Source: a virus
IMG/VR virus record: IMGVR_UViG_3300032180_000015
Coordinates: 1 to 46,026 of that record
DNA: 46,026 nt
Direction: 5' to 3' (one strand)
A model generated the notes under the pieces. That model did not search any database. It was not told where the DNA came from and saw nothing but the letters and a program-made list of their open reading frames with translations. The first letter of the stretch is position 1; each line of letters starts with the position of its first letter. Of the stretch, positions 1,582 to 20,336 are shown one piece after another. The position numbers were made by a program, and so were the translations under genes.

Positions 1582-2226
1582 ATGAGCACAGGGTCACCGG
1601 TAAATCTGTTTGGCGGGGCGGTTGTCGGGTATGGTGGGCCGAGAGTTCAGGCGGATGGTCAGCCGGGAACCCTGAGAATCACCAAAGATGGTACGGAATG
1701 CACTCAAGACGCCCACGGCCGGTATCAGGAAGCGGTTTACCGCGGCAACGTCTTTCTGGCAGCTTCGCAGGCTGCGGTAACGTTTTCTGCGGGTTTGACT
1801 ACCACGACCTGCGTAGGCCTGCTTTTGGAGAACCCGCCCGGAAACACGAAGAATGCGGTCATCTTGCAGGCATCTTTCGCTAACACCGGAACCATTGTCG
1901 GAACTGCTGGCTTGGTAGCCTTCCCCTTTTCGACCACAGCTTTCACTCATACCACGGCATTGACCATCTTGAATGCCTTCACCGGCACCGGGAAACAGGC
2001 TGCGACATGCACGGCTGATCAAGGATCAAGTTCGACTCCCACGACCCCGGTAGTGGTTACGCCGCTCTATACGATTCTGAGCACCAATACTGCCGTTTCT
2101 GGTACTCCGTGTTTCGTTGATCTCGGCGGTTCTCTGATCGTTGGACCCGGAACAGCTGTCGGGATTCTAGCATCTGCGGCCATCACCGGATTTGCTTCGA
2201 TGCTGTGGGAAGAAGTGCCAATCTAA
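1582..2226 (+). CDS. putative virion surface/decoration protein
   Basis: A 214-residue Thr/Val/Gly/Ala-rich protein without charge clusters, predicted mostly beta. It starts at ATG 1582 behind a good GGAGG (1573-1577). The N-terminus (MSTGSPVNLFGGAVVGYGG) and the ending SMLWEEVPI resemble uncharacterised phage structural proteins. It precedes the methyltransferase/glycosyltransferase pair, so it could be a modified surface protein. That role is inference from composition and position. Confidence 0.5.
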   Translation: MSTGSPVNLFGGAVVGYGGPRVQADGQPGTLRITKDGTECTQDAHGRYQEAVYRGNVFLAASQAAVTFSAGLTTTTCVGLLLENPPGNTKNAVILQASFANTGTIVGTAGLVAFPFSTTAFTHTTALTILNAFTGTGKQAATCTADQGSSSTPTTPVVVTPLYTILSTNTAVSGTPCFVDLGGSLIVGPGTAVGILASAAITGFASMLWEEVPI

Positions 2227-2228
2227 AC

Positions 2229-2840
2229 GTGCTGACAGTCACGAACTCACTCATTGATAAGGCGCTGCCTATCCAGGGGTGGATGACGCCCCTGGAATTG
2301 GGTTGGCTGGCAAAGCAGGCTAGTCAGCACTCCCGCATTGTCGAAGTCGGTTCATTCCTTGGGCGGTCTACCAGAGCGTTAGCCGACAACACCCCAGGCT
2401 GGGTTATGGCGTTTGACGACTGGCACGGCCCTAGAGATGCGGGAATCAATATCCAAGGCGAGAACTTGGAGTTTACCCAATTGCCCGAGAAGCATGGCTT
2501 CAACTTCTTCGAGATGTTTATCCAGAACCTTCGAGAGCATATTGACTCTGGCAAGGTAAAAGTCTTGTGTGCCGATCACGGCGATCCGGACATTCTTCCA
2601 GTCGAGTTCCTGAGAGGGTCGGACTCGGAAAAACCTGATATGGTTTTCCTTGACGGCCATCATGGGTATGAAGCGGTCAAACGTGACCTCCTGATATGGA
2701 AGGCCAGACTCGCGGAAGGCGGCTTGCTTTGTGGGCACGATCTTGACTTTGACGGGGTCTGGCGGGCGGTTACGGAAGAATTCCGAAGCTCTTGGATGTC
2801 GGTTCCCTACACAAATTTATGGCTGATAAGAACTGCCTAA
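2229..2840 (+). CDS. class I SAM-dependent methyltransferase
   Basis: About 203 residues. The SAM-binding motif I is EVGSFLGRSTRALA, an acidic motif FDDWHG follows, and the post-core segment VFLDGHHGYEAVKRDLLIW with GGLLCGHD is characteristic of Methyltransf_24-type enzymes, often found with glycan biosynthesis genes. GTG 2229 begins two bases after the previous stop; an in-frame GTG at 2205 is an alternative, and neither has a strong Shine-Dalgarno. The next gene, a glycosyltransferase, overlaps its end, suggesting joint carbohydrate or small-molecule modification. Substrate unknown. Confidence 0.75.
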   Translation: MLTVTNSLIDKALPIQGWMTPLELGWLAKQASQHSRIVEVGSFLGRSTRALADNTPGWVMAFDDWHGPRDAGINIQGENLEFTQLPEKHGFNFFEMFIQNLREHIDSGKVKVLCADHGDPDILPVEFLRGSDSEKPDMVFLDGHHGYEAVKRDLLIWKARLAEGGLLCGHDLDFDGVWRAVTEEFRSSWMSVPYTNLWLIRTA

Positions 2841-3634
2841 GCTCAGTTGGCCTCGCCATAGGATTGCCCTTTATTGGCCGTCCCGTATCCCCTGAATGGG
2901 CGATCAGCTTCTCATCCCAGAACTACCCCATGAACATCCGCAGGAGCCTATCAGCCCTCAAAGGGGAGGAAATTGGCAAGGCACGGAACAAGATGGTTCA
3001 CGCGGCAAGACAGCATGGAGCCAAATACCTCTGGTTTCTGGATGATGATGTGGCTCCGCCGTTTCACGCTATCCGGTCTTTGATTACCACACTTGAGAAC
3101 GCTTCGCACGATGTCATGGTAGCCGGCGGGATTTATTGTGCCAAGACTCTACCGACTGAGCCGGTGGTCTTTCGAGGGAATGGTGTAGGGGCTTTCTGGC
3201 AGTGGAAGCATGGCGATGTCTTTGAATGCACCGGCATCGGCACCGGATGTATGCTGATCAAAATGGAAGTTTTTGACCACTTGCCCGAGCCCTGGTTCAA
3301 GACGATTGACACAGATGGCACCCCGGAACAGCCGATCTTGCAGGAAACTGACGATATGTACTTCTGCGATGCGGTCATTGACAAGGGGTTTAAGATACTC
3401 GCAGACACCAATGTGATGTGCATCCATTGGGGTTATGACGAAAAAAAGAAGGAGTTTATCCCGTACATGCTTCCGGCAGACTCCTACCCGATGAGATACC
3501 CGAGCGAGGAGGAACCCCGTGCCAGCCGTGTCTACAAAGCAGCGTCAGTTGATGGCAATCGCGGAACACAACCCCTCGGCAGTGCAGAAGAAGAATCGCG
3601 GCGTGCTGAAAATGAGCAAGTCCCAGCTGCATGA
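2819..3634 (+). CDS. GT-A family glycosyltransferase-like protein, copy 1
   Basis: About 271 residues from ATG 2819, overlapping the methyltransferase end by 22 bases. Family-2-like features: an N-terminal nucleotide-binding strand, the metal-binding motif YLWFLDDDVAPP, then GGIYCAKTLPTEP, GDVFECTGIGTGCMLIK and ETDDMYFCDAV. It is a clear paralogue of the gene at 13732, sharing PEWAIS, YLWF(L/V)DDDV, GDVFEC, TGCM(L/M)IK, FKILADT and DSYPMR. The paralogue stops just after DSYPMR, whereas this one runs about 45 residues further, through DNA that also encodes the next gene in another frame. The acceptor is unknown; no signal peptide, so cytoplasmic. Confidence 0.75.
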   Translation: MADKNCLSSVGLAIGLPFIGRPVSPEWAISFSSQNYPMNIRRSLSALKGEEIGKARNKMVHAARQHGAKYLWFLDDDVAPPFHAIRSLITTLENASHDVMVAGGIYCAKTLPTEPVVFRGNGVGAFWQWKHGDVFECTGIGTGCMLIKMEVFDHLPEPWFKTIDTDGTPEQPILQETDDMYFCDAVIDKGFKILADTNVMCIHWGYDEKKKEFIPYMLPADSYPMRYPSEEEPRASRVYKAASVDGNRGTQPLGSAEEESRRAENEQVPAA

Positions 3635-4014: not shown

Positions 4015-4422
4015 ATGCCAGTACCCGGAAACTACGATAGAGTCGATCTTGGCGGAGATAACACTTCCGATTACGTGAAACGCTCCTCGGAAGGCGTGAC
4101 GGGCAACTTCGAGCAGGCACGTCCTGAAGCTGGCTTACTGCCTGAATACGGCGACAATCTCGTACCCAAACCAATACGCTCAAAGCAGTTTTCCTCTGAT
4201 ACGAATGGCAACCCGGAAGCACTATTGAATACAACCCGGGAAGGCATGCGCGCCCATGCGGACCTGAATCAGCAATACGGACTGACTCAGCCCATTGCCA
4301 ATCTCGGCAGTCACCCGTGGTTACGAGATGGATGCGCCACTCAAGACACCAGTGAACCAGCAACGGCAGTACCGAATCAGGTGCGAGGGGTGCCAATGGA
4401 GCGTAGTGCACCTAACAAGTAA
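4015..4422 (+). CDS. hypothetical protein upstream of large terminase
   Basis: A 135-residue polar protein, probably largely disordered, with no recognisable domain (NYDRVDLGGDNTSDY; NPEALLNTTREGMRAHADLNQQYGL). TAATG overlap with the terminase start at 4422. The position before TerL is classical for a small terminase, but no DNA-binding helix-turn-helix is visible, and a better candidate lies at 45532-45951. Confidence 0.5.
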   Translation: MPVPGNYDRVDLGGDNTSDYVKRSSEGVTGNFEQARPEAGLLPEYGDNLVPKPIRSKQFSSDTNGNPEALLNTTREGMRAHADLNQQYGLTQPIANLGSHPWLRDGCATQDTSEPATAVPNQVRGVPMERSAPNK

Positions 4423-6188
4423 TGGCCGACAGTTACTCGATTGAGGAATGGAAACTCCTCCGCAAAAAAGGCCGTCGCTCCCTTCTTTTCCTCTGCCAGA
4501 AAATACTCGGATACAAAGACGTTTGCCTCGAAGTTCATGGCGAGATGTTCAAAGCCCTCCAGAAGTTTGGCGGCGGCGACGATACCGGAGACAATAAGCT
4601 ATTCCATGGCCGCATCTCTCCTGGAACCTTTCAAGACCTGATCCGCGAATATCAGCCAACTGTCCCTATGTGGGAGTTACAAGGGCCGCGAAAGTCTCTT
4701 GTCCTTTGGCCCCGGGGTCACCTGAAAACCTCGATCTGCATGGCATGGACAATTCAGTTTGTGCTGAATTATCCGAATGTGAGAATCCTGATTTCGTCAG
4801 GGACCGGCGATCAGGTGAGGAAGTTTCTCGATGAAATCCTATCTCACTTTCGGCATAATGAGATGTTCCGATGGGTTTACCCGGAGTTTGTGCCACATGG
4901 GAAAAATGTCAAAGAATTCGGCAACCAGGAACGTTTTACAGTTCCCGCGCGGACCATACATCGAAAAGAGCCAACGATCTCAGTTTGTTCAGTCGGTGCA
5001 GTCGTCGCAGGCGGTCACTTCGACGTCATCTACAACGATGATGTCGTTGATAAGGAGAATGTCCGAACCCCCGAGCAAATCGCCAACGTCAATTCGCATC
5101 TGGGATTTCTATGGCCACTTCTAGAGACTGCGCCAGATGCGGACAAACGTCCCCGAGGCTATGAACGTGGCTGGTGGTTGATGGCTGGCACCAGGTATGA
5201 CTTCTCTGACTCTTATGGCACAATCATCGACTCTGAAGCCGCCAAACCTGAAGCGGAACGCTCTTACACAATCCAGGAACGAGATGTCATTGTGTCAGGA
5301 GATTTATCCGACTTGGCCAACTGCAAGACGATCTGGCCTGCCCGAATGCCTCCGCAAGCGCTTAAAGACATTATGGACGACCCTTTACAAGGGCCGGGGA
5401 TTGTAGCTTCGCAGTACCGAATGAATCCGATTCCAGACAAGTCAGGGCTGGTAGACTCGCCCAAGGAAATTGTCTGGGTGCCGCTGGAGGCGATGAAGAA
5501 AATCTATGCTTACCTCAGTTTGCACGTCACTGTTGACCTTGCTGGCATGGAACCGAGCACTAATAAGCTTGCCGATAACGATTTCACAGTCATTACCCCG
5601 CACGGGTTTGGACATGATGGCACACTCTACGTTTTGCCCATCATGCGCGGCCGGTACACCCCCTTTGAAGTCATCGACTTGCTCTTTAAGCTCTTTTCTA
5701 TCCACCCCAGAATCGTCGATGTCAAAGTAGAGAAAGAGGCTCATGCTAGAGTGTTGCTACCGTTTCTAAAACGAGAGATGGCGAAACGGCAAAGATTCCT
5801 CCCGATTGTGGAGATACGCCGTGACAATCGAACATCTAAGCAGCAGAGGATCAAAGGTTTACAACCTTGGTTCCGCAACGGGTCCATCAAGTTTGCGGAT
5901 AATCAACCTCACAAGCTCGCCATTATCAATGAAATTATGCGTTTCCCGAAATACTCGCATGATGACATTCTTGATACTCTCGCCGACGCGATGCAGAACC
6001 GAGAAGGCGGAATTACCTACGAAGTCGAGCCTATGAGGAAAGCCGAGTGGTCGCAGAACATGGATGTTTTATCCGGGCGCATGGATGGTGATACAGTGAC
6101 CTTACCCTCGGCGGTGATGGGGCAATTGAAGATTTGGGGCGAAGAACCGCAGGAATCGAATGTGGTAGATTCGCTCACGGGATGGTAA
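4422..6188 (+). CDS. terL: terminase large subunit (packaging ATPase/nuclease)
   Basis: 588 residues, normal TerL length. The ATPase half has a Walker A-like loop WPRGHLKTS (96-104) and Walker B DVIYNDDVVD (201-210). The RNase H-like nuclease half has an acidic strand HVTVDLAG (Asp372), VDVKVEKEAHA (433-442) and HDDILDTLADAM (513-524). It drives ATP-dependent genome packaging through the portal encoded just downstream and cuts concatemers. The start overlaps the preceding TAA. The P-R-G-x-x-K-(T/S) form of the P-loop is typical of T7/N4-type terminases. Confidence 0.93.
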   Translation: MADSYSIEEWKLLRKKGRRSLLFLCQKILGYKDVCLEVHGEMFKALQKFGGGDDTGDNKLFHGRISPGTFQDLIREYQPTVPMWELQGPRKSLVLWPRGHLKTSICMAWTIQFVLNYPNVRILISSGTGDQVRKFLDEILSHFRHNEMFRWVYPEFVPHGKNVKEFGNQERFTVPARTIHRKEPTISVCSVGAVVAGGHFDVIYNDDVVDKENVRTPEQIANVNSHLGFLWPLLETAPDADKRPRGYERGWWLMAGTRYDFSDSYGTIIDSEAAKPEAERSYTIQERDVIVSGDLSDLANCKTIWPARMPPQALKDIMDDPLQGPGIVASQYRMNPIPDKSGLVDSPKEIVWVPLEAMKKIYAYLSLHVTVDLAGMEPSTNKLADNDFTVITPHGFGHDGTLYVLPIMRGRYTPFEVIDLLFKLFSIHPRIVDVKVEKEAHARVLLPFLKREMAKRQRFLPIVEIRRDNRTSKQQRIKGLQPWFRNGSIKFADNQPHKLAIINEIMRFPKYSHDDILDTLADAMQNREGGITYEVEPMRKAEWSQNMDVLSGRMDGDTVTLPSAVMGQLKIWGEEPQESNVVDSLTGW

Positions 6189-8375
6189 ATGTCGGCAGGT
6201 GACGCAGCAGGCAGTTTAACGAACTTCTCGATGGCCGCGACTCCCGCGACCAATGCCCCGTCAAACATTCCGGGCGGACCTGGAATTCCAGCGATGACCA
6301 CGGAGCAGCGGGAAAACCCTACTCCGCAAGATCAGAAATGGACAAATACGCAAGCGGCCCAGATCGCAATGGGCGATTTCAAGAAGGCAGAATCGTACAG
6401 AACGATTAACCATGATTGGAGGTTCCGTGTCAGCGATCAGCTTTATCTGGCGTGGACTCAGAGGAAAACGTGGGAAGGGACGAAAATTCCGCGTTCGTCT
6501 GTTGGGATTTTCCTTTCCCTTGAACAGATTGAGGCTCTACTTCCGACTGTTGTACTAGCTCTGTTCCCGGACAATAATCGTCTCCCATTTGACGTAGAAC
6601 CTCTGCCATCCACCACAATGGGACAAGCACAAGCCGTGCGGGACCTTCTTTCGTCTCAACTCGGGGACCTAGGGGAGCAAGGGAAATATCTGACGCTTCG
6701 GGAAATCGTTCGACGGGCATACAAGCAATCCTACATCTATGGCAATGGAATAGTCGAATTCGGCGTCCTGGACCGTAATATCCAGCGCATCAAGTTTGAC
6801 CGCGTGACTGTCCCAATCCGCCAAATGGTACCCCATCCGATCACCGGAGAGCCTGTACCCGTACCGACTGGCAAGACTACAACCCACGTTAGAAAGACTT
6901 TGGAGCGCCAGCACATTGTTCGCCCGATGCTGAACAATGTAGATATTCGGGACTTCTATTGGGACCCGAACTGCTCAAGCCACAATGTAAACGATGGCTC
7001 ATTCTGCGCTGTGCGATCACTTCTTACGGTGAATCAACTTCTCGAATATGACGGCGTAGAAGGAATCAATCTTCCCAATGTGCAAGGGGAACACGTAGAG
7101 CGAGAACTGCTGAAACTGGCACAGATCAAAACGACCTCACAGGGCGATACCTCGAAGATGAATCAGGAATCATTTCGGGGGATGACGTGGACTCCTTCGA
7201 TTGACTACAGTGTCGATCCCAATCTGGCGCGGCTTGAGGTCATTCGATACTGGCAGAAAAACCGTCACGTGTGGATGCTCGGCAGACAATGGACGGGATA
7301 CAATCAGACGAACCAGTATGGTATCCTGCCCTTCCTCGACGCTTTTTATGTCGATGTGCCGGGGCGCTTCGCCGGCCTGAGTATTTGCGATCTTGTAGAA
7401 GGTGATCAGAAGCTCGCGGAAGCAATCATCAATGCTCGCATTGACGAACTTAATCTTCTTATCCATCCGCCCATTATAAAGAAGCAAGGGCGAGCTTTCA
7501 CAGCTTCACAGCAAAGATTGCGGCCCGGAGTCATCTGGGAAGCGGAAGACCCAAAGAACGATTACATCCGATTTGAGATGGGCAACATCACCAACAATGC
7601 CTATGTGGAGGTGGACGCACTTGAAAGACGAGTCCAAAAGAAAACCGGAGTCACTGACCTTGCCGTTCTGGGAACCCCAACAAGCGGAGGTAATTCGGCA
7701 AATAGGACGGCTACCGGAGTCTCTTCTCAAGAAGGAGCTTCTGGAAAGCGTATCCAATACCATGTCGAAAATGCTGAAGATCAATTCCTTGTCCCAGCCC
7801 TCGACATCCTCCATACACTGAACCAGATTTTCCTACCTGCCGATGAGATGATCGAAATACTTGGCCCGGAGATGCAGCAACTCACCATCGACCCGGTAGA
7901 CATTCTGAATGCCTCAGTGAAGTTCAAGATCAACGCATCATCAAAGATGCGGACGCGGAATGCTTTGGCCTCTGGCGGATTAGGGCTTGTCTTGCAGACC
8001 TACCTCAACCCGGAATTCATTCAATTCCAGATGATGAGCGGCAAGAAGCTCGACATGGAACAGGTTGTCAGGATGGTCAATGATACCTTCGGTCTGCCGC
8101 CCATGGCGCTCTGGACTGACATGAGCCCCGAGGAACAGCAGCAGTTTATCCAAATCAAGATGATGCCAGAACAGATGAAGATGGAGATGCAGAAACAGCG
8201 TACCGACGCGCATCAGGCGGTGACGGACTCGAAAGATGAAACTACACTCATTAAGACAGTGCTGGAAAAAATCCTCACTCCGCAAGCGGCTCATCTCATT
8301 TTGAATGAGTACATGGGTGCAAACCTGGATACCAGGACGGGTAATGAGCCACAGCCGATTGGAGAGACACCATGA
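6189..8375 (+). CDS. portal protein
   Basis: 728 residues, close to the large P22/N4-type portals rather than the roughly 500-residue siphovirus forms. The N-terminus is disordered; the core carries LEQIEALLPTVVLALF, the portal-like IYGNGIVEFGV strand and PFLDAFYVDVPGRFAGLSICDLVEGDQK. The C-terminal quarter is helical and Met/Gln-rich (MSPEEQQQFIQIKMMPEQMKM), like barrel or crown helices. It begins at ATG directly after the TerL stop and ends in an ATGA overlap. Call rests on position, length and these patterns. Confidence 0.85.
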   Translation: MSAGDAAGSLTNFSMAATPATNAPSNIPGGPGIPAMTTEQRENPTPQDQKWTNTQAAQIAMGDFKKAESYRTINHDWRFRVSDQLYLAWTQRKTWEGTKIPRSSVGIFLSLEQIEALLPTVVLALFPDNNRLPFDVEPLPSTTMGQAQAVRDLLSSQLGDLGEQGKYLTLREIVRRAYKQSYIYGNGIVEFGVLDRNIQRIKFDRVTVPIRQMVPHPITGEPVPVPTGKTTTHVRKTLERQHIVRPMLNNVDIRDFYWDPNCSSHNVNDGSFCAVRSLLTVNQLLEYDGVEGINLPNVQGEHVERELLKLAQIKTTSQGDTSKMNQESFRGMTWTPSIDYSVDPNLARLEVIRYWQKNRHVWMLGRQWTGYNQTNQYGILPFLDAFYVDVPGRFAGLSICDLVEGDQKLAEAIINARIDELNLLIHPPIIKKQGRAFTASQQRLRPGVIWEAEDPKNDYIRFEMGNITNNAYVEVDALERRVQKKTGVTDLAVLGTPTSGGNSANRTATGVSSQEGASGKRIQYHVENAEDQFLVPALDILHTLNQIFLPADEMIEILGPEMQQLTIDPVDILNASVKFKINASSKMRTRNALASGGLGLVLQTYLNPEFIQFQMMSGKKLDMEQVVRMVNDTFGLPPMALWTDMSPEEQQQFIQIKMMPEQMKMEMQKQRTDAHQAVTDSKDETTLIKTVLEKILTPQAAHLILNEYMGANLDTRTGNEPQPIGETP

Positions 8376-8590
8376 CAAAACCCTATACGACATTTATTAT
8401 GGGCAAAGACAATTATGAGATTGCTCCATTTGCGGAGAGCATTCGTGCCACTGAAATCGAGCATACAGGAATGGGTTATGAAATTACCTACCGTATTCCT
8501 GCCGCTATGGTGCCGCACTTTATGGCTGAACTTACGGACGAGGAGAAAATCAATTTCAAGTTCAGACTTGTTGCCAAATCAACTCGATAA
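8372..8590 (+). CDS. small hypothetical head-module protein
   Basis: 72 residues starting in an ATGA overlap with the portal. The sequence looks like a compact alpha/beta domain (YEITYRIPAAMVPHFMAELTDEEKINFKFRLVAK). No family recognised. The next reading frame overlaps its end. Confidence 0.6.
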   Translation: MTKPYTTFIMGKDNYEIAPFAESIRATEIEHTGMGYEITYRIPAAMVPHFMAELTDEEKINFKFRLVAKSTR

Positions 8591-8912
8591 AACAGAGGCG
8601 CAGGAGCTAGCGGAACTCCGTGAGATTTACCAGACTACCAATTCCGCTGGATGGGTTCGCATCAAAGACCTAATGCAGGGATTGGTCGATGAAGCGCATG
8701 AGGATATGATTGGCAACACTTCAGCGGAGCCGATGACCTATATGCACAAACAATTGCGCTGGCAGCAAAGAGAGGCTATGATGCGTGGAGTGTTGGACTA
8801 CATAGCGCAGTGCGATCATGACCGGAAACGCATTCTTGACGAAATAACCGAGAGAGAAAAGGAGCGGAATACGTCCTATGCCGACTCACCACGAACTGAA
8901 GCAGTTGCCTGA
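8571..8912 (+). CDS. hypothetical helical protein
   Basis: About 113 residues from TTG 8571 (or TTG 8568). The frame is open further left to 8415, but that part lies antiphase inside the preceding gene and reads as shadow. The product is helical and charged (KTEAQELAELREIYQ; MHKQLRWQQREAMMRGVLDYIAQCDHDRKRILDEITEREKE). It overlaps the scaffold candidate by 35 bases. The start is uncertain because no Shine-Dalgarno is evident. Confidence 0.5.
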   Translation: MPNQLDKTEAQELAELREIYQTTNSAGWVRIKDLMQGLVDEAHEDMIGNTSAEPMTYMHKQLRWQQREAMMRGVLDYIAQCDHDRKRILDEITEREKERNTSYADSPRTEAVA

Positions 8913-9591
8913 TGGCAAAGTGGAAGTCAAGTTAGAAACCGGCGAAATCTTCACCGGTGACCCCTTGGAAGTAACTGCTAAACTTGCCGACAGCAAAGTC
9001 GAAACCCGCCGTCATTATGAGGCCAAAGAAGTTGAACTGCTGACGCGGCAACAGCAACTAGATACCCAACAGCAGACATCCACTCAGCAACAGCCACAAT
9101 CCCAAGAAGCGCAGTGGCAAGCCTACATCCTCGATCAGACAGCCAAGGGTTTAGGCTATCCCAATGCCGAGGCTTACAAAGCGGACCTCGCCAAGGTCAA
9201 AGGGGTGACGGCGGAAGTGGAGAATCAGGTCATTGCGGCGAACTTCATGAATGCCTGCCCTGATTTTCCGAACACGCCCGAGGCAATCGCGGCCATCAGT
9301 AAACGGCTCGAAGATAACAAGTGGGATTACACTCCACAATCCATGATCGCCGCACATTCCATGCTGCTCCGGGAGAACGCGCAAGACCCCACCAAGGGCT
9401 ACAAGCCTCTGACACCAGAGGAACAGAATGCCAGTTGGGAACAGGGTTTAAGAGCTTCCAATCGTCAACCTCCGCCAATGCTCAGAAGCGGTTCACCAGA
9501 GAGTAATCCGGGCGGATTCGATCCGTGGACAGTCAAAGATTCCGACGCCGTTCGCAAAGAATACTTAACACAATTGAAGGCCCAGAAATGA
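8878..9591 (+). CDS. scaffolding protein candidate
   Basis: 237 residues, acidic, Gln-rich and largely helical or coiled (RQQQLDTQQQTSTQQQPQSQEAQ), with a short C-terminal charged helix (SDAVRKEYLTQLKAQK). It opens with a small beta-rich motif (KVEVKLETGEIFTGDPLEVTAKLA). Gln-rich coiled proteins between portal and capsid genes are usually scaffolds, so the role is assigned by position and composition. Its TGA overlaps the next ATG. Confidence 0.55.
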   Translation: MPTHHELKQLPDGKVEVKLETGEIFTGDPLEVTAKLADSKVETRRHYEAKEVELLTRQQQLDTQQQTSTQQQPQSQEAQWQAYILDQTAKGLGYPNAEAYKADLAKVKGVTAEVENQVIAANFMNACPDFPNTPEAIAAISKRLEDNKWDYTPQSMIAAHSMLLRENAQDPTKGYKPLTPEEQNASWEQGLRASNRQPPPMLRSGSPESNPGGFDPWTVKDSDAVRKEYLTQLKAQK

Positions 9592-10058
9592 AACTTGACC
9601 CTAAACTAATGGCCGACTTACAGGAAATCCTGAAAGAGAAGCAAGGCTACATCAAACAGTTTCAGGCGCATTACGTCCTGCAAAAGCGCTGGGGATACAA
9701 GAAACTGGCAAAGATCACAAAGAATATTCTGGACGATGAGCGCGACCATCTGAAGGCGACTTTGCACTACATCGCACAACGGGACGGCATCCCGGACATG
9801 AACCAGAAGGATGATGCGGACATTGGCAAAGACGTGCCCACGCAGATCAAGAATGACCTCTCGAATGAGGAAAACTGCGTAACCCTGTTAAACCGGGTCA
9901 TCGTGGATGCCAGGAATGCGAAGGAAGATTCCCTGCGCCGCATGGTCGAGCACATTGTCAAAGATGATGAGGCCCACGTTGCCAAGTTCGAGAAGCAGCA
10001 GACCCTTATGAAAACCTTGGGCATGGAAAACTATCTGGCGAGGGTAGCGAAAGCCTGA
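9588..10058 (+). CDS. bacterioferritin-like (ferritin superfamily) protein
   Basis: 156 residues from ATG 9588 (ATGA overlap). Compared with E. coli Bfr (158 residues, recalled from memory) it appears to align without gaps along its length: MK.D.K at the start, W35-G36, H28, E51, H54, G67-x-P69, I79-G80-x-D82-V83, E94, D126, E128, H130, and GxxNYL near the end. Diiron ligands E51, H54, E94 and H130 are present; E127 is Asp and E18 is Lys. The heme ligand M52 is Arg, so heme binding is not expected. The four-helix fold is well supported; ferroxidase activity is doubtful with Lys18. It sits between scaffold and capsid genes, so it would be made with the head proteins. Confidence 0.85.
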   Translation: MKLDPKLMADLQEILKEKQGYIKQFQAHYVLQKRWGYKKLAKITKNILDDERDHLKATLHYIAQRDGIPDMNQKDDADIGKDVPTQIKNDLSNEENCVTLLNRVIVDARNAKEDSLRRMVEHIVKDDEAHVAKFEKQQTLMKTLGMENYLARVAKA

Positions 10059-10294: not shown

Positions 10295-10603
10295 ATGCAA
10301 GTCGTTCTTAACTGGCAGACAGTAGCCAATGCGCTCTACTACCGCATCTACAGAGGCACATCCTCGGGCGGTCCCTACCTTCTTTTAGGGCAGAGTAATC
10401 CAAATGCAGGACAAGTTCCGACGCCAGCCAACTCTCAAGTGACTACTACTTTCACGGATGGGACGACGATCAACGGGCAGTCCTATTACTACGTCGTTAC
10501 CTCCGTGACGCCTGACGGGGAATCGCCTTATAGTGCCGAGTTTGCGGCGGTTGCTCTGGCCCAACCAAGTTCTCCGGCAGGCTTCACAGGCGTCGTGACT
10601 TGA
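10295..10603 (+). CDS. fibronectin type III domain protein, possible capsid decoration
   Basis: 102 residues forming one FN3 domain: VVLNWQTVANALYYRIYRG (strands A-C with the conserved Trp), GPYLLLG, TTFTDGTTINGQSYYYVVTSV (strands E-F with the conserved Tyr pair) and ESPYSAEFAAVAL. No signal peptide. Ig-like and FN3 modules commonly decorate capsids and tails, and this gene directly precedes the capsid gene. Surface decoration is inferred. Confidence 0.75.
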   Translation: MQVVLNWQTVANALYYRIYRGTSSGGPYLLLGQSNPNAGQVPTPANSQVTTTFTDGTTINGQSYYYVVTSVTPDGESPYSAEFAAVALAQPSSPAGFTGVVT

Positions 10604-10750: not shown

Positions 10751-11707
10751 TTGTCATACGCACCAGCTGGTTCAACAACCCAAACCCCTACACTGTTACA
10801 CCTTGCGACGGTTTACTACGAACGTCGTTCGCTGGAACGCCTTGAAGCGATGTTCCGCTTCTATCAAGTTTGCGAACCCCATGACATCCCACAAGGCTCC
10901 GGCAAGACGATTCAGATGAACCGTTATGCTCTGCCTGGATTCAACACCGTTCCAGCGGCAGAAGGCGTCATTGGCGCTCCGGTTCCGCAGTCCACTTCCA
11001 TTGTCACTGCCACGGTTGAGCAGTATTCGGACTTCATGTCAGCTTCGGCGCTTCTCGAAGAAACTGACATCAACCCGACAAATGACCGCATGTCAGACGA
11101 TCTCAGCTATCGCGCCACGGGCACAGTCGATACCATTATCCGTACCGAAATCGACTCGAACACTTCGGCGCAGGTAGCAACAATCGGGCCTTGGCTTTCA
11201 GCCTCAGACTTCAAGGCAAACGTCGCACTGCTGTTGGGCATCAATGTCCGCCCGCGATTCGATAACTACTTCTTCTCAGTGATTCACCCGTATGTTGTCT
11301 ACGACCTGATTTCAGACAACACTGCTGGTGGCTTCATTGACGCACTGAAATACCAGTCTGGCAGACAGGTGCTACAGGGCGAAGTTGGCGAAGTGGGCAT
11401 GTGCCGGTTGCTGACTTCCACCAACGTCGGCACTTCTGGGACGGCGCCGAACGTTCTTTACAACACTTACATCATGGGTTCTGGCGGATTGGGAATTGTC
11501 AATCTGACCGGACGGGGGCCTGACCAGGTGGTCGATCCGCGCAAGGAACGCTTCAAGATGAACATGGTCAAGGGCGGACCTTCACCGGCTGATCCGGTAG
11601 GCGAGATTGCCATGTACGTGAGTTATCGGTTTGTGTTTGCAGCGAAGACCTTGGACACGACTAACCTGCGTTTCAAGATCGTCACTGCAAATGCGAGTTT
11701 GGTGTGA
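10751..11707 (+). CDS. major capsid protein, N4-gp56 family type
   Basis: 318 residues with HK97-like fold features. The N-terminal YYERRSLERLEAMFRFYQVC, then IPQGSGKTIQMNRYALPG and AAEGVIGAP, match the pattern of N4-gp56-type capsid proteins, as do YVVYDLISD, GEVGEVGMCRLLTSTN and the ending YVSYRFVFAAKTLDTTNLRFKIVTA. No cleavable delta domain is obvious, fitting a separate scaffold. TTG start supported by GGAGGT five bases upstream. It forms the icosahedral shell. Confidence 0.85.
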   Translation: MSYAPAGSTTQTPTLLHLATVYYERRSLERLEAMFRFYQVCEPHDIPQGSGKTIQMNRYALPGFNTVPAAEGVIGAPVPQSTSIVTATVEQYSDFMSASALLEETDINPTNDRMSDDLSYRATGTVDTIIRTEIDSNTSAQVATIGPWLSASDFKANVALLLGINVRPRFDNYFFSVIHPYVVYDLISDNTAGGFIDALKYQSGRQVLQGEVGEVGMCRLLTSTNVGTSGTAPNVLYNTYIMGSGGLGIVNLTGRGPDQVVDPRKERFKMNMVKGGPSPADPVGEIAMYVSYRFVFAAKTLDTTNLRFKIVTANASLV

Positions 11708-11708
11708 C

Positions 11709-11906
11709 ATGGGCGACGCGGAAAATACTGACCCTGACCTGATTAACCCGGCCACGGCTCCTGACCCAGGTCCGCAGCCGCAAGCTGGGGACATTACGGA
11801 TACGCCTACGGATCAAACTACGGTTGATCCAAAGGTGGAGAGTGGCGAGGCATTCAGGGATTGGGTGCAAGAAGATATGCGATGGAAGGAGCAACACGGT
11901 GGCTAG
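11709..11906 (+). CDS. small acidic Pro/Asp-rich hypothetical protein
   Basis: 65 residues from ATG 11709, one base after the capsid stop. Low complexity at the N-terminus (many Asp, Pro, Thr), then a short helix FRDWVQEDMRWKEQ. The frame is open upstream to 11631, but that part is inside the capsid gene. Probably an accessory head protein or linker; function unknown. Confidence 0.5.
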   Translation: MGDAENTDPDLINPATAPDPGPQPQAGDITDTPTDQTTVDPKVESGEAFRDWVQEDMRWKEQHGG

Positions 11907-12063
11907 AAAACCCGATCCTCCGCCTAAGCCGAAAGACAGTTGGCAAACGGCACCTACATCGAACCCGGCAACCAGTATGCCGGATTGGGTGACAGCAGAT
12001 CAGGCAACAAAGGAGTCTACCCCGCAGAACAAGAGTGATGGCGGGAAAGGCGTAAGCAACTAA
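11899..12063 (+). CDS. small Pro/Lys-rich hypothetical protein
   Basis: 54 residues from GTG 11899, preceded by GGAAGGAG and overlapping the previous gene by 8 bases. MARKPDPPPKPKDSW start, disordered throughout. Assigned as coding because of the Shine-Dalgarno and tight packing. Confidence 0.45.
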   Translation: MARKPDPPPKPKDSWQTAPTSNPATSMPDWVTADQATKESTPQNKSDGGKGVSN

Positions 12064-12122
12064 CCGACAGTCGGAACCGGGGCCACGGCAATCTTAAGTG
12101 GTGAGCCCCAGAGGAAACCAAT

Positions 12123-12686
12123 TTGGCCTCGAATGATGCAGTATATGTAGCAAAGCGGGCAACGGCTTTGACCAATCCGCTGACCAACGATTCCATCTTC
12201 CTCCAGGCTGACAATGCTGCTTTGGCGGCTTTCGTGGCTTTGGAGAACGACATCGTTTCCGGTACGGCTCGTCTGGATGGCAGGGTCTACTACGTCCGTG
12301 CCTCCGGCAAGGTCATCACGACTGTAAGCTCGACCTTGATCACGACTCTGTATTGGGCGAACACGGCAAAAACCGCCATTACCTACAACGGTACAGGCGT
12401 ATCGACCACAGGTGCAACGCACACTTCGGGAGCCTTTGCGACGACTTCCGGTAACTGGTGGTTGGAAGCGACTTTGACTTGGGATTCAGTTTCCAAGATT
12501 CTTGGCGGCAAGTTTGAGGCGTTTTCTTCAGCAACGCCCTCAGTCACCGCTACCACGGTTTGCACGGCGGTGACGGCTGTGGACCTGACTGTCCCTGGTG
12601 GGGGTCTGGTCTGCGGATGTCACTTTGGCACAACGGGCACGGGCAACATCTGCACCATGACCGAATTCCTCGCGGAGGTTCGCTAA
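12123..12686 (+). CDS. putative head/virion structural protein
   Basis: 187 residues from TTG 12123 (AGAGG about 8 bases before). Beta-rich and Thr/Ala/Gly-rich (SGTARLDGRVYYVRASGKVITTVSS; NWWLEATLTWDSVSKILGGKFEAF), ending FLAEVR, with four Cys in the C-terminal third (CTAV, CGCHFG, CTMT). TAATG coupling to the next gene. A minor capsid or decoration role is inferred from position. Confidence 0.5.
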   Translation: MASNDAVYVAKRATALTNPLTNDSIFLQADNAALAAFVALENDIVSGTARLDGRVYYVRASGKVITTVSSTLITTLYWANTAKTAITYNGTGVSTTGATHTSGAFATTSGNWWLEATLTWDSVSKILGGKFEAFSSATPSVTATTVCTAVTAVDLTVPGGGLVCGCHFGTTGTGNICTMTEFLAEVR

Positions 12687-13177
12687 TGCCTAGCAATCTG
12701 TCACCTGTATGGGCAGCACAGTTAATCACCGCCCAAGTCACTACGACTTCGGCGGCGGCGGCATCTCCTGTGATTCGCATTCCGCAGGCAGAGACGTACC
12801 TGTTCATTCTGGATGTCACTACCTTGACGGGAACGGCGACAACTCTGGATGTTGAAATGGGCATCTCGCCTGCTTCGACGGTTGCTACGGCCGCGCTGAC
12901 CTCAAGCACCTGGCACTACATTGCGAAGTTTACCCAAGCCACGACTGGTACTGGAGCTTGGGCGATTCGTATGCAGCCAACGATGGGACGCGGCGAAGCG
13001 GCAAGCGGTTGGGTTGCTGGCAGCAGCGCTTCGACCGACATGGCGACTGGCGCTGTGGTGGTGAATAACTGTCCTCTGACGCCAGACATCCGGTTCCGTT
13101 GGGTGCCAAACAGTCAAACAAACTACGTCTTCAGTATCTATGCATATGGGTACGCGAAGGCAGATGCGAGCTACTGA
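12686..13177 (+). CDS. putative virion structural protein
   Basis: 163 residues from ATG 12686 (TAATG overlap); the longer frame from 12560 is a shadow inside the previous gene. Predicted all-beta (ETYLFILDVTTLTGTATTLDVEMGI; YIAKFTQATTGTGAWAIRMQP; TNYVFSIYAYGYAK), reminiscent of jelly-roll head or tail accessory proteins. Function inferred only. Confidence 0.5.
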   Translation: MPSNLSPVWAAQLITAQVTTTSAAAASPVIRIPQAETYLFILDVTTLTGTATTLDVEMGISPASTVATAALTSSTWHYIAKFTQATTGTGAWAIRMQPTMGRGEAASGWVAGSSASTDMATGAVVVNNCPLTPDIRFRWVPNSQTNYVFSIYAYGYAKADASY

Positions 13178-13735
13178 TTGGCGTTAGAAAAACCGCACCA
13201 CAGTCCGACTCGGGTTACTGCTGGCTATTCGAGTTTGGACTGTGGCCGGGAATATCAGATCACCGAAGACGCTCTCCGGCGTGAGTACCAGCGCACGCTT
13301 CAGGCAGAGTATTTCCGCAATGAAAAGAACGCCACTGTGCCTGACGGAGACATCACCGACACAACCAATTGGGAAGAAGTGGTTGGCATCCCTTTGACCG
13401 GGGCACGAATCATCTCTCGCTTGAAACGCCTGAATAGCCAGCTGTGGTTTGAGCCTTCCAATTCTGACAATTCCAAGACCGGCATGTACGTTTTGCGCCC
13501 TGCCTTAAAAGGCGGCATGGAAAAGATGTTTCTGTGCGGCATGGAGACGGATGTTAACCCAGAATTCTCCTTACGCGTAGTTGACAATGAAGGGAAGGCC
13601 AAGGGAATCATTTCTGGCTGGCGAAGGGTTTTGATGCGTTTGATACAATCTCGACTAATCAGCGAACCGCAAGCGTATGCTTTGTTTGGCCCACCTTCGC
13701 GGGGGTCTGAAAATTGGGCGAGGTTTACGCAATGA
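13178..13735 (+). CDS. conserved-looking hypothetical protein
   Basis: 185 residues from TTG 13178, directly after the previous stop. Mixed alpha/beta, with a tyrosine-containing N-terminus (YQITEDALRREYQRTLQAEYF) and a central KRLNSQLWFEPSNSDNSKTGMYVL. It ends in an ATGA overlap with glycosyltransferase copy 2. No family recognised; possibly a head-completion accessory. Confidence 0.5.
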   Translation: MALEKPHHSPTRVTAGYSSLDCGREYQITEDALRREYQRTLQAEYFRNEKNATVPDGDITDTTNWEEVVGIPLTGARIISRLKRLNSQLWFEPSNSDNSKTGMYVLRPALKGGMEKMFLCGMETDVNPEFSLRVVDNEGKAKGIISGWRRVLMRLIQSRLISEPQAYALFGPPSRGSENWARFTQ

Positions 13736-14451
13736 TGAATCTTAAAGTCGGTTGTGTAGTAGGCACTCCCTTTCGCAAACGCAAGCCCGGAACGACCGAT
13801 GGGCTAGTTGTACCTGAATGGGCGATCTCACTGGCGAACCTGACATGGCCCTGCAATACGAACATCGCATGGGCACCCGTGAAAGGTCTTCCCCGAGACG
13901 AAGCCCGCAATGGCATTGCTGATGAAACAGTCAGACTCGGCTCTCCCTACCTGTGGTTTGTCGATGATGACGTGCAAGTTCCTCCCGATGCGCCGCGATA
14001 TTTGTTGAGCACGTTGGCGCAGGCTCCTGACGATGTGATGGTCGTCGGGGGGATTTACACAGGCAAGCTCGACCCCCCTGAGCCTTTAGTCTATGTAAAC
14101 GGTAACGGCCACGGCGCTCACTGGAAGTGGAAGCGTGGAGACGTGTTCGAGTGCAGCGCCATTGCCACTGGCTGCATGATGATCAAGACCGAAGTATTCA
14201 AACATCTGGAAAAGCCCTGGTTCAAAGACCTTGACGGCGAGACGGAAGGCTGGACGATTGAGAACAAGGCGGTTGGGGCACGCTTGAACATGAGCGACGA
14301 CCTGTACTTCTGCGAGAAGGTGCAGTCAGCAGGGTTCAAGATACTCGCGGATACCCGAGTGATCTGTTCGCATTGGGATGTTGCCAATGACAAGGTATTT
14401 GACATGCCCCTGGATTCCTATCCGATGAGGGCAGAGAAGGTGCCGGCATGA
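13732..14451 (+). CDS. GT-A family glycosyltransferase-like protein, copy 2
   Basis: 239 residues from ATG 13732 (overlap with the preceding stop). The nucleotide-sugar/metal motif is YLWFVDDDVQVPPDAP; then come GGIYTGKLDPPEPLVY, GDVFECSAIATGCMMIKTEVF and MSDDLYFCEKVQSAGFKILADT. It is paralogous to 2819-3634, by eye nearly half identical over the shared 200 residues, and ends at DSYPMRAEKVPA without the extra tail of copy 1. Placed among head and neck genes, it may glycosylate virion proteins or a nucleotide or wall precursor. Acceptor unknown. Confidence 0.75.
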   Translation: MMNLKVGCVVGTPFRKRKPGTTDGLVVPEWAISLANLTWPCNTNIAWAPVKGLPRDEARNGIADETVRLGSPYLWFVDDDVQVPPDAPRYLLSTLAQAPDDVMVVGGIYTGKLDPPEPLVYVNGNGHGAHWKWKRGDVFECSAIATGCMMIKTEVFKHLEKPWFKDLDGETEGWTIENKAVGARLNMSDDLYFCEKVQSAGFKILADTRVICSHWDVANDKVFDMPLDSYPMRAEKVPA

Positions 14452-14684
14452 TGACAAACCATACGCGAAGGGCACTCGCAATGGCAATTGACGAACTCAA
14501 GCGCGATGGCTATAGCGTGCTCTTGCTGATGTTTGACAAGAAGTCGGATGAGTCGCGGCCACTCGGAGAAGCTATCGAGATTCTCAGTTCTGAAACCAAC
14601 GATCCGCAACTTCTTGCGGCGATGGCGAAGGATGCGTTAACAGAGATGTCGAGGCCGATCAAACTGCCGGAGATAATCAATTGA
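14448..14684 (+). CDS. small helical hypothetical protein
   Basis: 78 residues from the ATGA overlap at 14448. Sequence is predominantly helical with an acidic middle (ELKRDGYSVLLLMFDKK; LGEAIEILSSETNDPQLLAAMAKDAL). No recognisable family. Confidence 0.5.
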   Translation: MMTNHTRRALAMAIDELKRDGYSVLLLMFDKKSDESRPLGEAIEILSSETNDPQLLAAMAKDALTEMSRPIKLPEIIN

Positions 14685-15226
14685 GACAGGCCATCAAAGA
14701 CAAACTCGCAGAAAGGGAACAAGCTATGGCAATCCCGGAGTCATTCAACGTGCAGGATGTATTGAAGCTCTTGGCGGAACGCGATGAAGCGCACATGAAG
14801 CAGATGATGGAGTTTGCGAAAGAGCTTCGCAGACCTACGGAGCGTGAGCAGAAAGAGATTGACGACAAAGAAAAGCGCGTCAGCCAGCAACAGCAGGCGA
14901 GATTTAAACTGGCGCAGTCGGAAGTTGACCGCAAAGAGATGCAGAAGCGCTCGTGCGCTCACAGCACGACTCACGGCGGGACTGGCGTAACAACTCACCA
15001 ATGGCGCGCGCAAGTCCATACTCCATCGCATTGTGACCCCTACTTCAGGCCAACTTGTACCCAATGCCTGTCATCGCTTGATCCCATCCGTGCGACCACA
15101 GAGATGATTACGCAGGGCGTCAACCTCGATCAGTACAAGGGCGTCAACATGGAGGTTCTCCTGAAGTGGGCAGGCGAATCATGGAAAGGGCATGAAGACC
15201 GGCACCCGAACCGTCAGGCGGCTTAA
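14681..15226 (+). CDS. coiled-coil plus zinc-binding-like hypothetical protein
   Basis: 181 residues from TTG 14681 (overlap with the previous stop); ATG 14726 is an alternative start with AAAGGGA upstream. Residues 20-90 form a charged coiled coil (AERDEAHMKQMMEFAKELRRPTEREQ). A Cys/His cluster follows (CAHSTTHGG...HCDPYFRPTCTQC), a likely zinc site, and then a short helix. Function unknown. Confidence 0.5.
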   Translation: MRQAIKDKLAEREQAMAIPESFNVQDVLKLLAERDEAHMKQMMEFAKELRRPTEREQKEIDDKEKRVSQQQQARFKLAQSEVDRKEMQKRSCAHSTTHGGTGVTTHQWRAQVHTPSHCDPYFRPTCTQCLSSLDPIRATTEMITQGVNLDQYKGVNMEVLLKWAGESWKGHEDRHPNRQAA

Positions 15227-17541: not shown

Positions 17542-19341
17542 TTGCCTCCAGCATCTCAAACCGAGCATAATGGCACAGGGAACACAGCACTTCCCTACAT
17601 CTCAAATTATTCCATTATCAGCACCAGTCCTCATTTCATTCCCGGAAGTCAGAACGTCCTGACAGGCCTGAGACAGTGGTCTGAGCGGCGTCCCGGATTC
17701 TCCACAACGATTGCAGCAAACTGGAAGAATCTTGCGCGGCATTTTGTTTGGCAGAAGTGGGGTGGGGCATTCTTTCATATGTTCTGCGACCTGACTCCCG
17801 TAGCCAAGGTTTACAAGATTCAGGTCGGCCTTGATGCGAACCCCGTGCTGATCTGGACTTCCGCCAGTGCGGAGCCATTTGATTTTGTTGTGTCCAACAA
17901 TACGTGCTACTTCGGCAACGGAACGGATATGCGGAAGTATGATGGGACCACGGAAACGAAGTGGGGAATAACGTCTCCGGCTGCTGCTCCTATGGTGACC
18001 TTGGTGAGTGGCACCATGAATGTGTACACTTCATGGTCCTACACCTATACCTACTTCAATTCGGTTACCCAGCATGAATCCTCGCCAAGCCCAATCAGTA
18101 TCCCGTTGACTCCGTTTGGAACCCAGAATCCGAGGATAGCGGTCATTGCTTCTGCCGATCCGCAAGTGACCAATATTCGTATTTACCGGACCACGGACGG
18201 CGGAGCCCAAGACCCTGCATTGATGCAGGAACTTTCCAATTCCCCATTTCCCAATACAAGCACCACGCATGATGACACGACGCTGGACATCAATCTTTCA
18301 TTGCGTGTGGCCCCTGAATTTCTTACAAACGATCCGCCGCCACCCGCGAAAGGTTTCGTTGCATACGCAGGAAGGATTTGGAGTTTTCTGAACAATACTG
18401 GTTACTATTCAGGCTTTGAGGAGATTGCGAATGGCGTTCCGGAAGAATCATGGCCGTCAGGACTTGGTGGGAACTTCTATCCATTTGACAAGGAAATCTT
18501 TGCCCTCGCCTCTCTCATCGACGGTGTCGCTCTGTTTACCGCTGCCAGAATCTACAAAATTGAGGGCGACACGCTTGATACTTTCCGGCGCTACACATTG
18601 CTTGAGAGACGCGGAACTCGCAGCCGTACAACTGTTACATCACTCGGCGGCTCCGTTGCATGGCTTGATACCTCAAACACGCTTTGGATCAGCGACCTGG
18701 GAGAGGTCGGACTGCCCATACGTCCAGACATCCAAAACATCAATCCGCTGACCGCATACATTGCGATTCATATCAGCGGGATTTATCACTGGCTAGTTTT
18801 GCTGGATGGTACGAATGGCATTCTGTATATCTATGACCTCGACACAAATCAGTGGCTTACCCCTTGGACGGTAGGAACCTCGGGAAGCGCTCTTGTATCA
18901 GGGGAAACCAGCATAGGAAATGTGCAATTGATGTTCGCCCGCAACACGACAAAGAGCCTTCAGATGACTTCAGGAACCTACAACGATGACGGGAATTTGT
19001 ATATTCCGAAGATTAAGACCAATATGTACCGCCTGACACCGGATAACAATCCATCATTCAAAGGTGTGCATGATTGGAGCGAAATCAAGACTGATACGCA
19101 CGTTCCAACACAAGTCTTGCAACTTACGGATGACGACCCGACGACTGCTGGTTATGTGGACATCACGGCGAATGGGCAGCCATCGCCTGACATACAGCAA
19201 GGCGGTAACCTATTGACTACCAGGTGGACATCGAATTACCCGCAGGCCCAGATGATGAGTATGCAATTTGTCTGGCCTGCCGCAGAAGCAAATTTCTTTC
19301 TTTATCAGATGGATGAAGCATTCCATCCTTCTGGAGGCTAA
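17542..19341 (+). CDS. beta-propeller-like tail protein (tail nozzle candidate)
   Basis: 599 residues from TTG 17542. It has repeated four-strand blade-like segments: FGNGTDMRKYDGTTETKW, YSYT/Y-rich fibronectin-like HESSPSPISIPL, IRIYRTTDGGAQDPAL, VAYAGRIWSFLNN, TAARIYKIEGD, SVAWLDTSNTLWISDLGE, YIYDLDTNQWLTPW. This architecture, length and position after the adaptor genes are what one expects of a podovirus tail nozzle or tubular protein B. TAATG overlap with the Hint-domain protein. Confidence 0.6.
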   Translation: MPPASQTEHNGTGNTALPYISNYSIISTSPHFIPGSQNVLTGLRQWSERRPGFSTTIAANWKNLARHFVWQKWGGAFFHMFCDLTPVAKVYKIQVGLDANPVLIWTSASAEPFDFVVSNNTCYFGNGTDMRKYDGTTETKWGITSPAAAPMVTLVSGTMNVYTSWSYTYTYFNSVTQHESSPSPISIPLTPFGTQNPRIAVIASADPQVTNIRIYRTTDGGAQDPALMQELSNSPFPNTSTTHDDTTLDINLSLRVAPEFLTNDPPPPAKGFVAYAGRIWSFLNNTGYYSGFEEIANGVPEESWPSGLGGNFYPFDKEIFALASLIDGVALFTAARIYKIEGDTLDTFRRYTLLERRGTRSRTTVTSLGGSVAWLDTSNTLWISDLGEVGLPIRPDIQNINPLTAYIAIHISGIYHWLVLLDGTNGILYIYDLDTNQWLTPWTVGTSGSALVSGETSIGNVQLMFARNTTKSLQMTSGTYNDDGNLYIPKIKTNMYRLTPDNNPSFKGVHDWSEIKTDTHVPTQVLQLTDDDPTTAGYVDITANGQPSPDIQQGGNLLTTRWTSNYPQAQMMSMQFVWPAAEANFFLYQMDEAFHPSGG

Positions 19342-20336
19342 TGGCGGACATCTTCAAACCGATTGTTGACCGCCGGGGGACTACCCTTTATCCGGGCTTC
19401 AGTAATACCGTGCCTGCTGGATTCGGTAGGATTCAGCGATTAGAGAAAGGTTCTCAAAGGATTCAGCGTGGCACTATACGCCCGACTGCCGGAAACTTTA
19501 CCAGGCTTCCACTGTCCAATCTGGTAAAGACTTCGGGCACATCTCAAAGCCTTAGCATGACAAGTTCCAAGATGCAAAAGTTGGGATCAGTATCCCCGCA
19601 GACGGCCACAAACGGTTTTGGTTATACCTCTGACGGGGCTTCGATTACGTGGTATTGGGATGGAACGAACGGATCAAAAGTAATTCAGATTCATCGGGCG
19701 GATCAAAGCGTATTCAACTTGCCAACGGTAGGTAGCGGATTGCAGGTGACGGGGTTGGCGAATGGCACGGTTTATTACTTTCTTCCGTTCTGGAATACTA
19801 CCAGTAAGAGCAACCTTGGATGGGTCAAGGGCACGGTTGGCAGTCCCCAAATAGCTTTCGTAGCTGCCGATGTAGCTGATCCCGTGAACGGGCCAATCTA
19901 TATCATTCGCCAGTCATCGCAGAATAACGAACCATTGAGTGCGGGCTTCATTTCGGCAACATGCGGGACGGGCGGATCAGGCACCCCGGACAATGGCGGA
20001 TGTGTTATGGAAGGAACGCTCATTGCTCCTGTTGGGGATATGGATTATCAGGTTGAGCGAATCCCTGAAAGCGAGTGGATGTATCTGCAAGTGACTGATC
20101 GGAGGTATTTGAACTGCACACTTGACCATCCCTTGTATCATGCTGACAGAGGCAGGGTTGAGGCTTCGCAGTTGACGGTTGGGGATAAGATCATTACCGA
20201 CACGGGCGAACAGGAGATTGTGAACACGCATTTCTTTACCCAGAAGTTTCAGAAAAACAAGGTGCAGATGAGGGTAGGACACTTGTTCTGGGCTAACGGA
20301 TTTCTATCGCACAACATAAAGTTCAGGTCACCATGA
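19341..20336 (+). CDS. tail protein with C-terminal Hint (intein/hedgehog-like) domain
   Basis: 331 residues. Residues about 95-175 look FN3-like (ASITWYWDGTNGSKVIQIHRA; GLANGTVYYFLPFWN). Residues 221-325 form a compact 105-residue Hint domain: Cys221 after Gly-Gly (GGCVMEGT), the TxxH motif in CTLDHPLYH (Thr260, His263), the A-x-x-L-x-x-GD segment (ASQLTVGDKI) and terminal FWANGFLSHN (His324-Asn325). The residue after Asn is Ile, not Cys/Ser/Thr, so extein ligation is not expected; autocleavage at either end is possible. Only six residues follow. It lies among tail genes, suggesting a self-processed virion protein. Confidence 0.8.
   Translation: MADIFKPIVDRRGTTLYPGFSNTVPAGFGRIQRLEKGSQRIQRGTIRPTAGNFTRLPLSNLVKTSGTSQSLSMTSSKMQKLGSVSPQTATNGFGYTSDGASITWYWDGTNGSKVIQIHRADQSVFNLPTVGSGLQVTGLANGTVYYFLPFWNTTSKSNLGWVKGTVGSPQIAFVAADVADPVNGPIYIIRQSSQNNEPLSAGFISATCGTGGSGTPDNGGCVMEGTLIAPVGDMDYQVERIPESEWMYLQVTDRRYLNCTLDHPLYHADRGRVEASQLTVGDKIITDTGEQEIVNTHFFTQKFQKNKVQMRVGHLFWANGFLSHNIKFRSP

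Follow-up and report, generated by a model that had tools for sequence, protein, structure and literature searches.

A bacterioferritin fold with degenerate iron sites among the head genes of an uncultured tailed phage

Among the head genes of a group of uncultured tailed phages lies a bacterioferritin (Bfr)-like gene whose product has degenerate metal and heme sites. Unrelated phages likewise carry Bfr genes in their head modules, and together this points to reuse of an iron-storage fold by phages for a job connected with the head. Ferritin-superfamily genes of phages are usually taken as metabolic or oxidative-stress aids; here the gene occupies a conserved slot in the head module, and the iron chemistry of its product appears to be mostly gone. 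A largely iron-stripped Bfr fold with a role linked to the head is tentatively preferred as the best explanation.

Organization of the head module

The window (the whole stretch of DNA analysed, 46,026 nucleotides) is an IMG/VR virus record. The head genes follow the order terL, portal, small ORF, scaffold candidate, bfr, FN3-like ORF and major capsid protein:

4422–6188, plus strand: terminase large subunit, terL (phrog_38, 6e-60)
6189–8375, plus strand: portal protein, SU10 type (PF23899)
8415–8912, plus strand: small conserved ORF between the portal gene and the scaffold candidate, matching SU10_07 in position
8878–9591, plus strand: scaffold candidate, 237 aa (SU10 synteny; 38–47% identical within the clade)
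9588–9591, plus strand: 4-nt ATGA overlap, the ATG start of bfr lying over the TGA stop of the scaffold candidate
9588–10058, plus strand: bfr-like gene, product P0001 (Bfr fold, degenerate metal and heme sites, net charge +2)
10295–10603, plus strand: FN3-like protein, 102 aa (sequence motif only; adjoins the capsid gene throughout the clade)
10751–11707, plus strand: major capsid protein (phrog_1357, 3e-24; 87–90% identical within the clade)

Phage SU10 shares the arrangement of terL, portal, small ORF, scaffold and capsid genes, but its scaffold-capsid interval is empty. The scaffold candidate gave no match in profile searches and is assigned from this synteny. The original prediction had described bfr as ATGA-coupled to that gene and as sitting just before an FN3 protein and the capsid gene. 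Both descriptions hold, the FN3 assignment by motif only and with a poor AF2 model (pLDDT 50.9). Probable production of the protein with the head, as was also proposed, is supported, and the gene keeps this slot in related phages.

Elsewhere in the window, a tyrosine integrase is encoded at 840–1391 (phrog_216, 4e-21), which makes a temperate lifestyle possible. The head genes are flanked by genes of the methyltransferase and family-2 glycosyltransferase-like types (2205–3634 and 13714–14451). In the structural region, the product of 19341–20336 has a weak C-terminal HINT (intein-like) match to PF07591, below the cut-off, and that of 35423–36043 contains a long Ala/Asp/Tyr repeat with AADAAYAA units.

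The product is a bacterioferritin-type protein

P0001 (156 aa, encoded on the plus strand) is a genuine member of the ferritin superfamily and belongs to its Bfr type. It matches the Pfam Ferritin family PF00210 (E = 7.9e-16; 58.7 bits, cut-off 24.5) and aligns over residues 1–153 with the bfr profile TIGR00754 (E = 2.3e-22), yet at 79.7 bits it stays below the equivalog cut-off of 125.55. The best PDB chain is 9h1u_M (E = 9.2e-16). E. coli Bfr (1bcf) is matched at 5e-13, residues 1–151 on 1–151 and without gaps over the shared length, and identity to Bfrs is 25–30%. Pfam, TIGR00754 and PDB matches agree with the end-to-end, gap-free homology to E. coli Bfr that had been proposed, and the residues named from it (E51, H54, E94 and H130 kept; K18, R52 and D127 changed) are all exactly so in the alignment.

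An AF2 model built with the five phage sequences as input (pLDDT 91.5, pTM 0.85) has five helices (5–34, 38–64, 83–110, 114–144 and 146–154), including the four-helix bundle, and Foldseek against the PDB places solved Bfrs on top (TM 0.97, rmsd 0.9–1.0). The protein is not of the Dps type: a helix E (146–154), which Dps proteins lack, is predicted, and the top matches are Bfrs instead of Dps. The sequence stops at Bfr length, with no C-terminal targeting peptide of the encapsulin type. Of the features relevant to cage formation, the NYL of helix E is retained, and R61, D56, L65 and Y114 are altered.

Conservation in the clade and an accessory hotspot in wider kin

Relatives were drawn from viral contigs by portal and capsid searches. 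All five clade members that span the scaffold-capsid interval carry bfr in it: the window, L004, L005, L009 and L010, the last four with products 70%, 52%, 55% and 54% identical to P0001, respectively. PF00210 is matched in all four of these relatives (4/4). L006 carries the matching 5' part of L010, and the two probably come from one phage. In L009 and L004 the bfr start likewise overlaps the scaffold stop by 4 nt, as ATGA and GTGA, respectively. Pairs of bfr genes within the clade differ by pN of 0.15–0.31 against pS of 0.69–0.93, and with pS near saturation at such pN values the protein is under purifying selection; dN/dS can be given for few pairs because synonymous sites are saturated. 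The capsid protein evolves more slowly than the bfr product, and the latter more slowly than the scaffold candidate.

A profile made from the clade Bfrs was run on the other loci whose capsid or portal genes are related and found no relative there, so the gene is confined to one clade with capsid identity of at least 87%. Scanning viral contigs with a single protein yielded no relative, and scanning with an alignment recovered the clade alone. A pattern search for a cellular relative in genome contigs found none; scanning these contigs turned up one distant capsid, in a Bacteroidetes MAG.

In kin with more distant capsids, the interval holds genes for a methyltransferase, a polysaccharide deacetylase, glycosyltransferase-like proteins or LAGLIDADG endonucleases, or is empty (loci with genes between scaffold and capsid are L038, L039, L043, L045, L046 and L069). 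The nearest isolate found, Tunturiibacter phage Tunturi_3 (portal 25% and capsid 27% identical to those of the window phage), carries an acetyltransferase gene in this slot; its own host belongs to the Acidobacteriota (PMC11924767). Within the clade, L004 has an insertion of about 3.4 kb (11840–15058) that separates bfr from the FN3 gene; it brings in an IS1-like transposase along with further genes, and one part of it weakly matches a Phd/YefM-like antitoxin. The scaffold-capsid interval is thus an accessory hotspot in the wider kin, with unrelated genes in place of bfr, and this weakens any head role argued from gene position alone.

Decay of the iron sites and loss of acidity

The five phage Bfrs were compared with 22 Bfrs, comprising cellular and solved ones and two from GenBank phage records. 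The terminal ligands in E. coli Bfr are E18 and H54 for Fe1 and E94 and H130 for Fe2, and E51 and E127 are bridging (PMC4771812; PMC3467274). The full set is absent from the phage clade. E18 is replaced by K (four copies) or Q (one), E51 is retained in four of five and is V in L005, and E127 has become D or N; H54, E94, E128 and H130 are retained in all five. Y25, found in 22/22 comparison Bfrs, is F or M in the clade; in E. coli Bfr the Y25F change brings mineralisation down to 15% (PMC4771812; PMC3467274). In a Magnetospirillum Bfr the combination E18Q, H54A and H131M drastically lowers iron oxidation (PMC6529640). The heme ligand M52 (M, L, K, T or A in the comparison set) is R in 5/5 phage copies. 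Around the pores, N/D/H34 is changed to R or A, and D132 and Q151 are both changed to A; B-pores are lined by residues 34, 66 and 132, Q151/152 lies by the 4-fold pore, and mutation there lowers iron storage (PMC12120770). R61, also present in 22/22 comparison Bfrs, is Y in every phage copy, and the clade further shows D56 to K, L65 to R and Y114 to D.

Net charge is -1 to +4 in the phage Bfrs (pI 6.8–9.3) versus -6 to -18 in the 22 comparison Bfrs. Helices A, B and D all contribute to the shift: conserved K/R residues have newly arisen at positions 42, 45, 52, 56, 65, 109, 118 and 125, and K18 adds a positive charge in four of the five. Composition bias is ruled out as its cause, since the adjacent scaffold, FN3 and capsid products are acidic (pI 4.3–5.3). 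K18, probably salt-bridged to E51 at the first-iron position, may replace Fe1; this would fit L005, where both residues are gone together (Q18, V51). Human L-ferritin offers a parallel in its K62–E107 bridge.

The proposal of an iron-handling protein is weakened by these changes: H54, E94 and H130 are invariant, but the heme ligand, E18, Tyr25, the pore residues and the acidity are gone. From these residues we infer that ferroxidase activity is weak or lost.

A strong rival to the head-linked role, though itself a somewhat doubtful one, is that of a late accessory (auxiliary metabolic) protein that binds or buffers iron or another metal in the cytosol of the infected cell and lessens oxidative damage while virions are made, its place among head genes merely giving it strong late expression. 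In relatives this slot attracts accessory enzymes, the Tunturi_3 acetyltransferase among them, and Dps and Mn-catalase genes of gut phages of the Gratiaviridae and Flandersviridae are read as oxidative-stress genes (PMC8008677). The invariant H54, E94 and H130, with E51 in 4/5 copies, would also suit this reading, as would the head-module Bfrs of another lineage that retain all ligands (see below). It accounts poorly for the loss of E18, Y25, E127, the heme ligand, pore residues and acidity, with E51 lost too in L005. Nor are ligands retained more than other positions: cellular Bfrs share 36 conserved columns, of which the clade keeps 16, keeps 6 partly and has lost 14.

Origin of the phage Bfrs

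The tree unites the five phage Bfrs with full support (100/100), and the great length of their stem leaves the exact donor unsure. The clade falls outside the well-supported heme-binding Bfrs, near heme-free subunits. A grouping of the window clade with two other viral Bfrs described below (L148/L149) was dropped as possible long-branch attraction, from trees with each left out.

This position bears on another explanation, that P0001 is a host-directed subunit that joins the host Bfr cage and alters iron storage or release, as in heteromeric Bfrs. Heteromers of this kind, in which the subunits divide the functions, are common (PMC6529640; PMC12120770), and the best solved match, 9h1u_M, is itself the heme-free chain of a heteromeric Bfr. 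The residues of the interface region are rewired, however (R61 to Y, D56 to K, L65 to R and Y114 to D), and acidity is lost, so that mixing with a host cage is regarded as quite improbable.

Bacterioferritin genes in the head modules of other phages

Viral contigs were scanned with an alignment of cellular Bfrs, giving 24 loci, whose neighbours were read from ORFs, with profiles run for representatives. A common arrangement is portal (phrog_12, HK97-type), Bfr, head maturation protease (phrog_80) and capsid (phrog_10), in L136, L140, L141, L143–L147 and L150; L143, L146 and L150 were profiled in part and the rest assigned by sequence likeness, short contigs showing a partial module. In L148 (4839–5462) and L149 (4694–5155) Bfr lies between the portal and a phrog_53 protease. 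L142 has the order Clp protease, capsid E, small ORF and Bfr; L137/L138 have head-tail adaptor, Bfr and phrog_6663; and in L131 Bfr is found a few genes beyond an SU10-MCP-like capsid gene. The Bfrs of L130, L135 (a 250-kb contig) and L139 lie outside head modules.

Counting the window clade, Bfr is linked to head or neck genes in 6/9 genome types, for which the binomial tail is 6e-4 to 3e-3 if 15–20% of genes are assumed to lie in such modules, a rough test in that the lineages were delimited after the data were seen and several of the Bfrs are interrelated. Among contigs of at least 30 kb the figure is 4/7 (binomial tail 0.01–0.03); virus detection in IMG/VR favours contigs with head genes, which biases the head-module count.

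Several candidates were set aside. L128/L129, in which an E. coli-type Bfr of the ordinary kind adjoins a likely integrase, were treated as bacterial flank; L151, of 35 residues, is a fragment. MT835709.1 (L002), a GenBank phage record that carries an ordinary bacterioferritin and apparently bacterial genes and seems to be bacterial DNA, and OQ572407.1 (L003), filed as phage and carrying an ordinary bacterioferritin, were not counted as phage Bfrs. The Bfrs in Pseudomonas phage Y5, Acinetobacter and Salmonella records, ordinary by annotation or alignment, are probably bacterial DNA. Separately, three BFVD entries named 'Prohead protease' from uncultured Caudovirales (A0A6J7WPK9, A0A6J7WIS1 and A0A6J7XDU5) have a weak Dps/ferritin-like structural match and are possibly fusions.

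The state of the iron site differs among these Bfrs. In the portal–protease lineage all six ferroxidase ligands are intact in L136, L140, L141 and L143–L145, together with K/R52. L146 (K18, Q54) and L150 (H18, T25, S51, S54, K94) form a nested pair that has lost ligands and kept its place, and the Bfrs of L148/L149 have T51, H52, F54 and H127 with a net charge of -1 to -2. Ferroxidase residues were thus lost on at least two occasions, probably on three, and each time the gene stayed in the head module. Against a head role, the six ligands kept in L136 and L140–L145 would favour an iron function in those phages. The viral head-module Bfrs seem to have two or three origins: the window clade, a Chloroflexota-like group and, with weak placement, L148/L149. 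That different tailed phages have repeatedly recruited bacterioferritin for the head or virion, some losing the iron chemistry and keeping fold and place, is conceivable but falls well short of likely.

The recurrence of head-module placement, like the coupling of bfr to the scaffold candidate near the capsid gene, could also be cited for P0001 as virion cargo, packed in the capsid like encapsulin ferritins and delivered or used within the particle, possibly bound to DNA. Encapsulins pack Bfr and ferritin-like proteins (PMC8346489), and a neutral to basic charge would tolerate packaged DNA. Packaging is nevertheless considered unlikely: P0001 has no C-terminal extension or targeting segment past the Bfr fold, a 24-mer cage would cost space for DNA, and the glycosyltransferase-like, methyltransferase and homing endonuclease genes in the interval of wider kin are unlikely to encode virion cargo.

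A proposed head-linked role

The preferred reading, a Bfr fold put to use in connection with the head, draws on the fold, the synteny, purifying selection, the residue and charge changes, and the Bfr-like genes in other phages' head modules, which give it indirect support. The ancestor of the clade would have acquired a Bfr-fold gene once, with remodelling afterwards. P0001 would be produced late, translationally coupled to the scaffold. Without heme, its iron-entry pores altered and its surface neutral to basic, it would not be a standard iron store, and what is left of the ferroxidase site (H54, E94, H130, usually E51, and D/N127) may bind metal weakly or as a single ion at most. Acting as a dimer or a ferritin-like cage, the protein may associate with the procapsid, portal, scaffold or packaged DNA and there serve in assembly or stabilisation. 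Should the head link hold, these phages would be a concrete system in which to examine claims of iron in virions.

Comparison with known systems

With E. coli Bfr and TIGR00754, P0001 shares the five-helix fold, W35, G80, the NYL of helix E, H54, E94 and H130; it lacks M52, E18, Y25, E127, D132 and Q151 and is neutral to basic. Heme-free subunits (SoBfr1 9iig_A, 9h1u_M and P. aeruginosa FtnA) resemble the phage clade in having a residue other than Met at position 52 (K, L or T), so the missing Met52 does not by itself exclude Bfr ancestry. They keep E18, E51, H54, E94, E127 and H130 and are acidic; the phage clade has lost part of this site.

Among viruses, Bfr genes have been described in Flandersviridae (PMC11780533) and in a Bathyarchaeia virus (PMC10904782). 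These and the gut phage genes mentioned above (PMC8008677) are assigned by sequence to metabolism or oxidative stress, and the accessible parts of the three papers report no scaffold-capsid slot and no site decay. Among the best 12 matches of a literature search for bacterioferritin alongside portal and prohead protease, with subscription journals mostly outside its scope, none contained bacterioferritin. The 'ferritin' gp217 of a Vi01-like phage, recognised by Phyre, detected by mass spectrometry and tied to the Ferrojan horse hypothesis, is encoded near tail genes, and tonB and feoB mutants remained susceptible to that phage (PMC10892097). It is ferritin-like among structural genes as here, but in a tail operon versus the head slot of the window.

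A parallel in gene arrangement is offered by the encapsulins, which pack Bfr and other ferritin-like cargo (PMC8346489) and in which a ferritin-fold gene adjoins that of an HK97-fold shell, as in the window. Unlike encapsulin cargo, P0001 shows no targeting peptide, and the shell beside it is that of a complete phage, equipped with terminase, portal and tail. Phage capsids are the presumed ancestors of encapsulins. A real head link would show that phage heads can adopt ferritins, the reverse of encapsulins; and if recruitment to the head has indeed been repeated, the ferritin fold would be a recurrent head accessory, a counterpart to the packing of ferritins by encapsulins.
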